From positions 124,001 to 188,000 of the forward strand of contig CACADE010000002.1 of NCBI GenBank assembly GCA_902531175.1: a stretch of DNA of 64,000 nt, read 5' to 3'. This stretch comes from an uncultured Pelagibacteraceae bacterium. GTDB taxonomy: Bacteria > Pseudomonadota > Alphaproteobacteria > Pelagibacterales > Pelagibacteraceae. A program made the translations under genes and the position numbers. The notes below the pieces were generated by a model. It worked only from the letters and a program-made list of their open reading frames with translations. It searched no databases and was not told the DNA's origin. Positions 52,456-56,123 of this stretch are shown here, one piece after another (the first letter of the stretch is position 1; every line of letters starts with the position of its first letter).

Positions 52456-52530
52456 GGTCCCTTCGTCTATCGGTTAGGACACATGGTTTTCATCCATGAA
52501 AGAGGGGTTCGATTCCCCTAGGGACCGCCA
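52456..52530 (+). tRNA. tRNA-Glu (anticodon TTC)
   Basis: A 75-nt tRNA with acceptor GGTCCCT pairing AGGGACC, anticodon stem CATGG/CCATG around loop TTTTCAT, T-arm GGGGTTCGATTCCCC, and encoded CCA. The GIY-YIG gene ATG begins 3 bases after the CCA end. It also borders a region with a tyrosine recombinase and could be considered as an integration site, although no full-length repeat of its 3' end was found. Confidence 0.97.
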
Positions 52531-52532
52531 TA

Positions 52533-52814
52533 ATGCCTTACTTTGTTTATCTTATCATTTCAAAAAATAGTGACAATCCTGTAAGCTATGTTGGCTATAC
52601 AAATAATTTAAAAAAAAGAATTACTACACATAACTCCTCAAAAGGAGCAAAATTTACAAGAGGAAGAAAATGGAAATTAGCATATAGTAAGAGATATCTT
52701 TCTAAATCGATTGCAATGAGAGAAGAATATAAATTAAAAAAAAATATTAAATTGAGAAATAAAATCAAATTAAAATTTAAAAAAAATGAAAATTTCAATA
52801 TTACTCCCCTATAA
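52533..52814 (+). CDS. GIY-YIG nuclease-family protein (UPF0213 type)
   Basis: A 93-aa single-domain protein. The first beta strands read YFVYLIISK and SYVGYTNNLKKRI (the GIY-YIG motif with GYTNN), followed by the conserved Arg region and the Glu in AMREEYKLKK. Stand-alone members (YhbQ-like) are thought to be structure-specific nucleases, with poorly known roles. It starts two bases after the tRNA-Glu and overlaps the glycosyltransferase by 29 bp. A Lys-rich C-terminus is typical of the base composition. Confidence 0.83.
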   Translation: MPYFVYLIISKNSDNPVSYVGYTNNLKKRITTHNSSKGAKFTRGRKWKLAYSKRYLSKSIAMREEYKLKKNIKLRNKIKLKFKKNENFNITPL

Positions 52815-53829
52815 AGAAAATTTCTCTCCAATTTATCCAGGAGCAGTATCATTATTCTTAAAAGATACCATTCCTTTAAGCAAATTTAGAAACAATATAT
52901 TAGTATATGGAAATACAGATTATAAAACCAGACTACTAAAAAATTATAAAAATTTAGAATTTAAAAAATTTTTTTTTAAGAGCTCATCTAAATCATACAT
53001 AAAAAAATTTGTTGAAGAAGAAAATATAACTAGATCCAAACTCATTGAAATCCATAACAGGCCCAATTATGTAAATACAATTTATAAAAAAAATAAAAAT
53101 ATTGTTTTATATTTTCACAATGATCCACTTAAAATGAAACATTCAACTTCTATAAATGATAGAATAAATCTTTTGAAAAAAACTTTAATGTTAATATTTA
53201 ATAGTAGGTGGACTTTAAATCAATTTACAAAAGGTCTTAACAAAAAAATTTTTAAAAATAAATTAAATATAATTCACCAATCTACAAATAAAAAAAAAAT
53301 TAATTTTAAAAGAAAGAAAAAAATTATTATTTTTGTTGGAAGATTAAATAAATCAAAAGGATATGATCTATTTGGAAAAGCCGTAATAAATATTTTAAAT
53401 AGATTTCCTGACTGGAAAGCTATTGCTATTGGTGACGAACCAAGAGAAAAAATAATTTTTAATCATAAAAGACTTAAAACTCTTGGTTTTAAAAATAACA
53501 ATATAGTTACTAATTGGTTTAAAAAATCTGACATTTCAGTAGTTTGTTCTAGAATAGATGAGCCATTTGGAAGAACTGCTTTAGAAGCTTCTAGCGCAGG
53601 GTGTGCTGTTATTATATCTAATAAGGGTGGGCTTCCTGAAGCATCATCTTCAGCTATAAAAATTAAAAAACTCTCTATTAGAAATTTACAAAAAAAAATT
53701 GAAAAAGTAATAAATAATGAAAAATATAAGAAAAATTTACAAAAAAAAATTTATAAAAATTTTAAATTAACAAATGAATTAGCTGCTAAAAAGATAGATG
53801 AATATAGAATTAAAATTATTAAAACTTAA
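52786..53829 (+). CDS. Glycosyltransferase family 4 protein
   Basis: GT-B-fold glycosyltransferase, 347 aa. The C-terminal half has IIFVGRLNKSKGYDLF and the nucleotide-sugar motif EPFGRTALEASSAGCAVIIS followed by GGLPE, typical of GT4. The N-terminal half is poorly conserved and Lys/Asn-rich. The donor and acceptor are unknown; surface polysaccharide synthesis is a reasonable guess. It overlaps the end of the convergent recombinase gene by 11 bp and could belong to a variable region. Confidence 0.83.
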   Translation: MKISILLPYKENFSPIYPGAVSLFLKDTIPLSKFRNNILVYGNTDYKTRLLKNYKNLEFKKFFFKSSSKSYIKKFVEEENITRSKLIEIHNRPNYVNTIYKKNKNIVLYFHNDPLKMKHSTSINDRINLLKKTLMLIFNSRWTLNQFTKGLNKKIFKNKLNIIHQSTNKKKINFKRKKKIIIFVGRLNKSKGYDLFGKAVINILNRFPDWKAIAIGDEPREKIIFNHKRLKTLGFKNNNIVTNWFKKSDISVVCSRIDEPFGRTALEASSAGCAVIISNKGGLPEASSSAIKIKKLSIRNLQKKIEKVINNEKYKKNLQKKIYKNFKLTNELAAKKIDEYRIKIIKT

Positions 53830-54772
53830 TTTTATTTAAAGCATTATTTTTAAATATATTTGCCTCTCTAATATATCTTCTAACCATTTGTGTTGTTTTA
53901 TGACCTGTCATAGCCATAATGCTTCGCTCATCAGCGCCTGAATCAGCAGCTACTGTAGCAAAACCAGATCTTAAACTATGACCAGAAAAATTTTTGTTTT
54001 CGATACCTGCTAACTTTAAATATTCTTTCATTAATAAAACTACAGATTGGTCAGTTAATCTTTTGTTTGTTAATGATAAACCTTTAGAAAATCTTCTAAA
54101 AATAGGTCCAGACTTAATTTTAGAAATTTCTAACCACTTTTTTAGATTTATAACAGGACAGTAAATTTCATTATTGAAGTAGGGCAGTCCTTTAATCATT
54201 CCTTCTCCGAATTGGTCAGTTTTTGATCTTTTAACATTGATTTTTAGACCCTCAGGAACAAATTCTATATCCTCATGATCAATTGAAATAAGCTCGGTTC
54301 TTCTAAAGCCTCCTCCAAAGCCAATTAAGATTATTGATTTATCTCTATGTTTTTTTATTTCCTCAGTTTTTTGTTCATTAATTACATTAATAATTGATTT
54401 TAAATGATTGATTAATATAGGTTTTTTACCTTTCTGGATGCTTCCCTTAACCCTTCTTATCCCCATTAAATTTTCAATGATGATTGGATGTTTTGTATCT
54501 AAATAATGTCCCTTCAATTTATGAACCATGCTTATTGATACTAATCTTCGTCTTAAAGTGCTTATTTTAGAATTTTTTGAGAGATGGGTTAGGTATAAGG
54601 AAACTATTTTAGGCTCTGTTGGTAATGGATTTAGTCTATGTTTTGCACAAAAAGCTCCAAAATCTTTAAAGTCAGATTTATAAGCTCTTAAAGTATTATT
54701 TGCCTTAGAACTTTTAAGGTTATTTAAAGTTGCTTCATGAAGTGTTTTTAGCTCTGTTGTTAGTTCTTTCAT
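53819..54772 (-). CDS. Tyrosine recombinase (phage integrase family)
   Basis: Site-specific recombinase of 317 aa. The N-terminal SAM-like core-binding domain (about residues 1-110) precedes a complete catalytic domain: first Arg in GGFRRTELIS, Lys in KRSKTDQFG, HSLR box in GHSLRSGFAT, third His in TGHKT and the nucleophile Tyr in VRRYIRE. It has no Xer-specific context and no phage neighbours. A 14-bp inverted repeat with a 7-bp spacer lies 4-38 bp before its start. Confidence 0.9.
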   Translation of the reverse strand: MKELTTELKTLHEATLNNLKSSKANNTLRAYKSDFKDFGAFCAKHRLNPLPTEPKIVSLYLTHLSKNSKISTLRRRLVSISMVHKLKGHYLDTKHPIIIENLMGIRRVKGSIQKGKKPILINHLKSIINVINEQKTEEIKKHRDKSIILIGFGGGFRRTELISIDHEDIEFVPEGLKINVKRSKTDQFGEGMIKGLPYFNNEIYCPVINLKKWLEISKIKSGPIFRRFSKGLSLTNKRLTDQSVVLLMKEYLKLAGIENKNFSGHSLRSGFATVAADSGADERSIMAMTGHKTTQMVRRYIREANIFKNNALNKIKF

Positions 54773-54775
54773 ATA

Positions 54776-54810
54776 ATTACTAGTGATAACAATTAATTAT
54801 CATTAGTAAT
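54776..54810. repeat. 14-bp inverted repeat with 7-bp spacer upstream of the recombinase
   Basis: Arms 54776-54789 (ATTACTAGTGATAA) and 54797-54810 (TTATCATTAGTAAT) match at 13 of 14 positions around a 7-bp spacer (CAATTAA). The size and spacer length are those of a tyrosine recombinase core site, and the position next to the recombinase gene fits either a recombination target or an autoregulatory operator. It does not resemble the alphaproteobacterial dif consensus as I know it. Confidence 0.6.
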
Positions 54811-54827
54811 ATATCAAGTGATTTTAA

Positions 54828-55034
54828 ATGTCAAATGAATTAAAACTAAAGTTTATGACTATAGATGGTGAAATTCCTACAAGTTATTTTTTAATTATAT
54901 CTTTAGGTTTAACTATACTGAGTTATTTGGTTTACAAAAAAAATGGAAAATCATTAGAAGTATATTTCTTATCTGTTTTAACAATAATTTTCTATTTATC
55001 TTATTTTATTCTAATTTTCGTTGGTCCAAGATAG
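54828..55034 (+). CDS. Small two-span membrane protein of unknown function
   Basis: A 68-aa open frame with two hydrophobic segments (about residues 19-36 and 46-64) separated by a basic loop (YKKNGKS). It is divergent from the recombinase and ends about 80 bp before the structured RNA candidate. No family is recognised. The hydrophobic pattern with charged loops looks more protein-like than random AT-rich sequence, but coding status is unproven. Confidence 0.45.
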   Translation: MSNELKLKFMTIDGEIPTSYFLIISLGLTILSYLVYKKNGKSLEVYFLSVLTIIFYLSYFILIFVGPR

Positions 55035-55109
55035 TTTGTTAACGCTATTCACAGCTGTTAAAAAACCTTAATAATCAACTATAAAGTGATACTAATCATA
55101 TTTGCACTA

Positions 55110-55310
55110 TGATAATCTCTCAAATGAATTAAGAGGCAACTCTTAACTGACCAGCTGGGGAAAAATCGAGAGATTCAAGCCCAGAGGGCAGAAAACCACG
55201 CAGAGTAGCGCTAAAATTGCGGGGTGGAAGGCATGGCGGTAGCGCATACAACGACGTGCCAAAAAACTACTGATCTTTGTACCTGAAAAGGTGCAGAGAT
55301 ACAGGGTTTT
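55110..55310 (+). ncRNA. Unclassified structured RNA candidate
   Basis: A G+C-rich block in an AT-rich genome with nested and interlocking helices: 55114-55121/55168-55175 (8 bp); 55129-55135/55140-55146 with a GCAA loop; 55147-55159/55180-55191 (10 bp with an internal loop), whose loop holds the 55168-55175 strand, making an H-type pseudoknot; 55208-55212/55241-55245; 55230-55234/55256-55260; and a 12-bp stem 55273-55284/55289-55300 with a GAAA loop. U-G pairs in the stems favour the plus strand. I see no RNase P, tmRNA, SRP, 6S or group I intron signature. The ends are approximate. Confidence 0.7.
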
Positions 55311-55316
55311 CTTTAT

Positions 55317-55592
55317 ATGATCCTAAAAGGTACACAATTTCAAATTAAAGTTTGGAAATATTTAAAAACTATCAGGAAAGGTAGTGTTTTAACCTATTCT
55401 GAAGTAGCAAAGGGTATTAATAAGCCTAAAGCTGTTAGAGCTGTAGCGAATGCTATTGGAAAAAATCCATATGCTCCTAAAATACCATGCCATAGAGTAA
55501 TCAGGTCTGATGGATCTCTTGGAGGATATTCTGGAAAAGGTGGTATAAAAACCAAGAAAAAACTGCTCAAATCTGAGGGAATTTTGCTCTAA
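55317..55592 (+). CDS. Methylated-DNA-protein cysteine methyltransferase, single-domain
   Basis: A 91-aa protein equal to the C-terminal DNA-binding/active-site domain of Ogt/MGMT. It has the helix-turn-helix RAVANAIGKNP with its Arg, and the active-site motif IPCHRVIRSDGSLGGYSG with the acceptor Cys, so it differs from Atl proteins, which have Trp there. The usual N-terminal domain is absent; no start exists upstream before a stop at 55284. Repair of O6-alkylguanine is the inferred role. It begins about 16 bases after the last hairpin of the RNA candidate. Confidence 0.82.
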   Translation: MILKGTQFQIKVWKYLKTIRKGSVLTYSEVAKGINKPKAVRAVANAIGKNPYAPKIPCHRVIRSDGSLGGYSGKGGIKTKKKLLKSEGILL

Positions 55593-56123
55593 AAGTTAGC
55601 AATACCAACGTTTTTTTAAAATTTAACAACATTTAGTATTACAATTTTAAATTCCCCTATTGGTTGCAGCTTATAAAATGAAATCTTTAAATTAGGCCTA
55701 TATTTGGGGCATTAAAAGCTATATTCATAAATTGCATTACTTCTGTAATTATTTAGAAAATTAATATTTTTTAGTATATTTATATTAATTAATATTAAGA
55801 AATTCCCATATCAAAATAAAACTAGGTTTTTATTAGCAATAGATTTGTTCTAAATTTAATCATAATTGTTGATTTTATTGAATATTGGTCCCCTATCTCA
55901 TAATCCAATTTCAATATATATTTTTATAATTCAAATAACCGCATATTTATTGATTATTTTTTTAATTACCAGGACATGTCTAATTGACAAATTTTATAAT
56001 TTTATTCCATTATTTGTGTTTTATACTAGTTTAAATAAGTTTAGATATTATATAAAATTTAACAATTACAATAGTTTACACACATTAATTAATGTATTAT
56101 ATTAATATATAGTACATATAATT
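55593..56123. other. 530-bp stretch without a supported gene
   Basis: Very AT-rich DNA between ogt-like and EamA genes. One open frame of 79 codons (55866-56105, plus) is hydrophobic and low in complexity; I see no ribosome-binding site or family resemblance and do not call it. The stretch contains ATTCCCCTA (55651-55659), identical to a 9-mer in the tRNA-Glu T-arm (52512-52520). This is the longest apparently non-coding interval in the window. Confidence 0.5.

Follow-up and report, generated by a model that had tools for sequence, protein, structure and literature searches.

An IMES-2 RNA, probably the product of a free-standing gene, between a recombinase gene and ogt in a SAR11-type bacterium

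The DNA analysed here, a stretch of 64,000 nucleotides that we call the window (contig CACADE010000002.1, positions 124,001 to 188,000 of the forward strand), comes from an uncultured Pelagibacteraceae bacterium. Between a tyrosine recombinase gene on the minus strand and ogt on the plus strand it carries a G+C-rich block set in AT-rich DNA, as had been noticed from the letters alone: G+C is 0.42-0.55 in the three 100-base segments starting at 55100-55200, against 0.20-0.37 in the neighbouring ones (starting at 54750-55050 and 55250-55500). Folding of the plus strand gives a z-score of -4.84, with 0 of 200 shuffles as good, and folding of the minus strand a z-score of -2.87, with 1 of 200 as good. 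Some distance away, at 52456-52814, a tRNA-Glu gene is followed directly by an open reading frame with a GIY-YIG domain. The features of the locus are as follows.

53819-54772, minus strand: tyrosine recombinase gene (Phage_integrase), outside the RNA unit
55036-55053, plus strand: DnaA-box-like 9-mer CTATTCACA at 55045-55053 and a degenerate 9-mer before it (sequence reading, motif match)
55076-55092, plus strand: conserved CAACTATAAAGTGATAC, with GTGATA (55086-55091) in the place of a -35 box (upstream alignment, in which this block carries the most information; promoter-pair scan)
55108-55113, plus strand: -10-like hexamer TATGAT, 16 bases after GTGATA (promoter-pair scan, upstream alignment)
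55120-55312, plus strand: predicted IMES-2 transcript (ends placed from the promoter position and the T-run)
55122-55262, plus strand: IMES-2 RNA core, RF02035 model positions 1-141 (Rfam match)
55129-55146, plus strand: hairpin P1 with a GCAA (GNRA) loop (Rfam consensus, covariation, loop counts)
55147-55191, plus strand: irregular hairpin P2 with an internal loop and a GAGA (GNRA) tip at 55168-55171 (Rfam consensus, covariation, loop counts)
55195-55225, plus strand: hairpin P3, 55195-55202 with 55218-55225, whose loop holds GCGCUA at 55208-55213 (covariation)
55208-55213, plus strand: first kissing strand, partner of 55240-55245 (two-sided changes at 3 of 6 pairs)
55230-55260, plus strand: hairpin P4, 55230-55238 with 55252-55260, one mismatch (Rfam consensus, covariation)
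55240-55245, plus strand: second kissing strand, UAGCGC (covariation of the kissing pairs)
55264-55312, plus strand: predicted intrinsic terminator, a 12-bp GAAA hairpin at 55273-55300 with flanking A- and T-runs (sequence reading, folding)
55317-55592, plus strand: ogt, with a 6-O-methylguanine DNA methyltransferase domain, outside the RNA unit

The structured block is a copy of the IMES-2 RNA, and its membership is settled. A cmscan search of the whole window against Rfam placed RF02035 (IMES-2) at 55122-55262 of the plus strand with 160.4 bits (gathering score 54.7) and an E-value of 3.2e-42, the match spanning the entire model (positions 1-141 of 141). It is the sole match in the window other than tRNAs; in a permissive scan of the surrounding kilobase four other families appeared, all below their gathering scores and all on different stretches. 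The original prediction had read the block as a new RNA class and had itself named this search, and a significant Rfam match, as what would remove the novelty; since RF02035 matches over its full model with an E-value of 3e-42, that class must be given up. It had also failed to recognise RNase P, tmRNA, SRP, 6S RNA or introns here, and the covariance models agree: no model of RNase P, tmRNA, SRP RNA or introns matches at the locus, where IMES-2 alone reaches its gathering score, and 6S RNA (RF00013) has no match in the window. RNase P RNA was found at another place in the same genome. The window copy has the four helices of the family and a marine host of the SAR11 type, and we found no difference from the family description.

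IMES-2 is thus an already known family, catalogued from ocean DNA; to our knowledge it has no assigned function. Weinberg reportedly described both IMES-1 and IMES-2 in 2009 as very abundant marine RNAs that rank with the most plentiful in their host cells. IMES-1 (RF02034) belongs to the same naming series and has no match in the window. We also considered it as a replacement in genomes that lack IMES-2 and dropped it: it matched in 0 of 58 genomes, in a search that rang nowhere at all and from which its absence does not follow. Among CC-licensed papers, a set that says nothing of print at large, one was relevant: in the part of it that we consulted, IMES-2 is among the non-metazoan matches of a squid assembly and may stem from environmental contamination (PMC6962438). 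The consulted passages of three others (PMC2704228, PMC2864571, PMC5069720) do not mention it.

The consensus helices are strongly supported by covariation among relatives. From 106 unique sequences of the common type (142 bases; the copies of genera g5 and g11 were not among them) we took 37 representatives differing by more than 5%. All of these but L186, 36 in number, were aligned by MAFFT with no structural model imposed. Across this unfitted alignment 94.4% of the cells are paired and 25 of 45 pairs vary on both sides, a value reached in 0 of 500 shuffles, and structures slid along the alignment give 32-41%; as the sequences share descent, the counts are not independent events. Further pair types show no clear excess (44 of 500 shuffles as high). 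A larger set of 42 distinct sequences, to which L186, L188 and the copies of g5 and g11 belong, was also placed on the helices of the model; here 93.8% of cells were paired and 34 of 45 pairs changed on both sides (0 of 500 shuffles; slid structures 33-41%), among them all eight pairs of P3. The GNRA loops of P1 and P2 are, by this comparison, mostly retained though their letters change: the P1 tip reads GCAA in 37 sequences, GUAA in one, GCGA in one and a different six-base loop in three (g5), and 55168-55171 of P2 correspond to GAGA in 35, GCAA in two and GAAA in one of the 42, the four without such a loop being the g5 and g11 copies.

A loop-loop contact between P3 and P4, whose pairs lay outside the fitted model, is likewise supported by comparison. 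The kissing pairs are formed in 96.4% of cases and change on both sides at three of six positions (18 of 500 shuffles reach three), and neither the 10 two-sided cells nor the covariation score was equalled in any of 500 shuffles; further pair types give no excess (349 of 500). The fully paired states are GCGCU with AGCGC in most sequences, UCGCU with AGCGA, GUGCU with AGCAC, GUACU with AGUAC and GCACU with AGUGC. The outer pair is broken in four sequences, one of which still compensates an inner pair. The comparison thus points to a covarying fold of four hairpins joined by this contact. Copies from genera g5 and g11 (L189, L190, L191 and L194) score 44-73 bits with our model R1 and 62-95 bits with Rfam's, far more diverged than the window copy; their P1 and P2 tips are changed, and their P3 and P4 loop sequences look exchanged.

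Much of the architecture drawn by eye in the original prediction is borne out: the comparison supports an RNA of the plus strand, in a genome of the SAR11 type, that is structured and has a crossing contact. The GCAA hairpin (55129-55135 with 55140-55146) is in the Rfam consensus, as are the helix 55147-55159 with 55180-55191, there interrupted by unpaired bases, and 55230-55234 with 55256-55260, there part of a longer helix. Three of the five crossing pairs proposed at 55208-55212 and 55241-55245 change on both sides, and a sixth (55213 with 55240) is possible; the 12-bp stem 55273-55284 with 55289-55300 and its GAAA loop exist as the terminator hairpin. Two elements did not survive. The pairing of 55196-55199 with 55224-55227 is out of register with the covarying helix P3, and the H-type pseudoknot of 55114-55121 with 55168-55175 can be dismissed because its pairs rarely form (all eight in 6 of 139 unique sequences and most commonly four of eight, counted at fixed offsets that may put sequences with a local insertion or deletion out of register), because the predicted -10 and start region shares bases with its 5' strand, and because 55168-55171 is the GNRA tetraloop of P2.

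The boundaries of the gene are predicted from a conserved upstream block and from the terminator. In the 177 upstream stretches that could be anchored (154 unique), the most conserved part is AAAGTGATAC, whose distance to model position 1, further downstream, is 33-38 bases in 173 of them and 28 bases in four; a -10-like hexamer follows, the best one at 15-19 bases matching TATAAT at 3-5 of 6 positions in the 154 unique upstreams. Promoter-like pairs are not enriched by count (7 found, where chance would give 4.1 +/- 2.1), and GTGATA-16-TATGAT is slightly surpassed by a pair at 55048-55075; it is therefore conservation that supports the promoter call. Elsewhere, a 16-base pattern of the block matched 12 times in nine genomes, against five times for a reversed control. 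By position, three of these matches are IMES-2 promoters; among six others that we inspected, one lies in a reading frame, one before a gene that looks like a regulator of the LacI type, and four look coding. On the downstream side, 109 of 115 unique stretches show a fold at least as stable as -8 kcal/mol with no fewer than 5 T among the next 8 bases; an automated scan of 54750-55700 returned no terminator-like site.

This unit was then found in more than one neighbourhood. A DNA-pattern scan of contigs gave at least 120 stretches, and the 120 listed all carry the label Pelagibacteraceae or Pelagibacterales (SAR11) and are of marine bacterial origin; as some loci of different samples represent one genome, our counts are made on unique sequences. 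Of the 120 listed loci, 97 have ogt downstream by tblastn, that is, every testable one in the recombinase context; two have the recombinase upstream but a stretch too short to tell, and 21 lie beside mnmA. Within the recombinase context the distance from model position 1 to the start of the ogt match is 187-204 bases in 96 loci; in the remaining one it is 384. Single copies from genera g12 and g8 also lie beside mnmA (checked with Pfam for g12 only), and three g5 copies between SNase and SRAP genes (Pfam for one); one g11 copy is flanked by RmuC and SelO genes. DNA-repair or nuclease-type genes (ogt, SRAP, RmuC, SNase, recombinase) recur among the neighbours, possibly by coincidence.

The original prediction had left undecided whether the RNA is free-standing or the leader of ogt; the first alternative, with its several contexts, promoter block and terminator, is now favoured and the second disfavoured, for three reasons. 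First, the RNA and the same kind of upstream block occur beside mnmA, where 19 of the 21 listed loci lack ogt downstream and the other two are too short to tell. Second, the g5 and g11 copies have other neighbours, and the RNA does not hold the constant place before one gene that a leader or riboswitch would have. Third, ogt occurs without the RNA in two relatives: in G022, which has a recombinase 92% identical to that of the window, the recombinase, a small open reading frame and ogt are in place with nothing resembling IMES-2 between them, and in G012, where ogt is present and IMES-2 absent, different genes occupy the site. A riboswitch or attenuator whose upstream fold would switch the terminator hairpin before the ogt start would account for the terminator lying between RNA and ogt and for the 97 of 97 linkage; set against these contexts it is highly improbable. 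Because the gene contexts vary, the conserved unit is RNA plus upstream block, the latter retained in 154 unique upstreams from several contexts, and not RNA plus ogt. The RNA is also closer to the window copy than ogt is in all 39 unique sequences with an alignable ogt (means 91.5% and 79.8%; 44 further unique sequences fell outside this comparison). We conclude that IMES-2 is, as comparison supports well, probably a free-standing small-RNA gene, and we consider it very likely that this and the identity hold together.

The short distance from terminator to ogt leaves room for read-through expression of ogt, and in the recombinase-ogt context a free-standing RNA may thus also supply ogt transcription. 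This dual role fits the constant linkage there and the arrangement in G022, where without the RNA ogt follows the small open reading frame almost directly; with the linkage not retained in other contexts, we regard it as possible but doubtful. Far less can be said for a part of a recombinase-linked mobile element, either an attachment site or an element-borne RNA. The recombinase gene adjoins the RNA in one context and IMES-2 is patchy in its presence, but the recombinase remains where the RNA is absent (G022 and G012), none of the 16 testable among the 21 listed mnmA loci has a match to this recombinase upstream, and no IMES-2 match occurs among 50,697 phage records. Viral contigs gave no match by exact pattern and two by a shorter pattern, both Rfam-negative for IMES-2. 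We consider this reading very improbable.

The IMES-2 gene is widespread in one family and far from universal there. The genome studied has a single copy. With 60 relatives it makes a set of 61 in which 21 have IMES-2, namely this genome and 20 of 36 others of its genus, compared with 0 of 24 from another family of the order. Larger samples, searched with stricter filters, gave 154 of 299 genomes of the genus at least 70% complete (29 of 59 of high quality) and, across the order, 213 of 398 genomes at least 75% complete (75 of 151 of high quality) and 6 of 12 genera; the order genomes listed with a match all belong to the family of the window, and each has one match save G555, which has two. 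We find the RNA in single-cell records of SAR11 and in the genomes G336, G331 and G333, each a single contig. Since 145 of the 299 genus genomes lack a match (30 of 59 of high quality), IMES-2 is not essential to the group.

Distant copies were sought where the gene seemed absent. For six genomes of the genus that consist of one contig (G012, G097, G245, G309, G332, G335), Rfam's model, run at a permissive E-value, yielded nothing credible; at this setting chance matches also turn up in 10 of 14 controls. Nor did these six give a credible match with a model that includes the distant members (R2), for which the best first-look candidates were scored. Weak R2 matches of 12-19 bits appeared in six same-genus and two other-family genomes lacking IMES-2. 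Those in G385 (C1), G381, G369 and G374 were rejected as hidden homologues, being one common stretch at the end of a gene (reading frames listed for two), presumably rpoA; we relied solely on score and alignment in calling those in G385 (C3), G245, G290, G044 and G046 chance matches. Rfam returned nothing in the seven weak-match loci tested.

Free-standing structure and size invite comparison with 6S RNA, which is itself free-standing, about 190 nt long and a long bulged hairpin. IMES-2 might have replaced it as a regulator of RNA polymerase: 6S RNA matched in 0 of the 61 genomes of the group against 5 of 14 controls including Caulobacter (under stricter filters), and IMES-2 seems to have a promoter and terminator of its own. 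Its fold has no long bulged 6S-like hairpin, however, and genomes without IMES-2 also lack detectable 6S RNA, so the two do not complement each other; a replacement is rather improbable.

The upstream region holds one further element. In many relatives the 9-mer preceding CTATTCACA reads TTATCCCCA or TTATCCACA, where the window is degenerate, its own best match to TTATCCACA having two mismatches. Such adjacent 9-mers stand before the IMES-2 promoter in more than one gene context. A forward match to TTATCCACA within one mismatch occurs in 17 of 25 diverse upstreams (differing by more than 25% in gapped identity, a 75% cut) and a reverse-strand match in 0 of 25, with 1.2% among shuffles; at a 65% cut the numbers are 5 of 9 and 0, and among all unique upstreams 88 of 141 match forward. 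An exact tandem-box pattern, sought in 21 genomes, matched at five places: the coordinates of one put it just upstream of IMES-2 (G223), and another has identical letters (G366). DnaA might bind such boxes, the site titrating DnaA or controlling the RNA. Against this replication-coupled element, the motif was chosen after the alignment had been viewed and the upstreams are related by descent, no more than 2 of the 14 genomes with IMES-2 in that set of 21 have the exact tandem boxes at the IMES-2 promoter, and the window's GC skew, positive for the most part to either side of the gene (negative at 4-kb steps at 8, 28, 36 and 56 kb), has no switch near it. We judge the element unlikely, and control of IMES-2 output by DnaA through the putative boxes similarly so. 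Less likely still is a replication-coupled regulatory RNA in the full sense, in which DnaA would act at the boxes and the kissing-loop RNA would report or control the cell cycle through a protein partner. CcnA, a non-coding RNA of Caulobacter tied to cell-cycle regulators (PMC8959179), would by its description be a possible alphaproteobacterial analogue if DnaA control were real. If true, a cell-cycle RNA would be at work in a type of cell that ranks with the most abundant of the ocean.

Taken together, the best explanation (probability about 0.7) is an independent IMES-2 gene whose RNA acts in trans, most likely by binding protein, with an output perhaps tied to DnaA. A gene of about 190 nt would be read in this SAR11-type bacterium from its own predicted promoter to its terminator as a short, abundant RNA. 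The compact fold, the conservation and the size suggest a role in trans, most likely through protein, in a ribonucleoprotein or as a global regulator in the manner of 6S RNA with RNA polymerase. The protein-binding part, taken by itself, is tentative, and an abundant trans-acting RNA working with a protein is our best guess. To a known family the analysis adds a host range, distant members, the covariation of a kissing-loop contact and a DnaA-box-like upstream element. The proposed promoter, the terminator and the covarying loop-loop contact are predictions that can be checked in existing metatranscriptomes, and the presence of the RNA in about half of the sampled genomes, together with its clean absence from the same site in the close relative G022, offers a natural comparison for finding its function.
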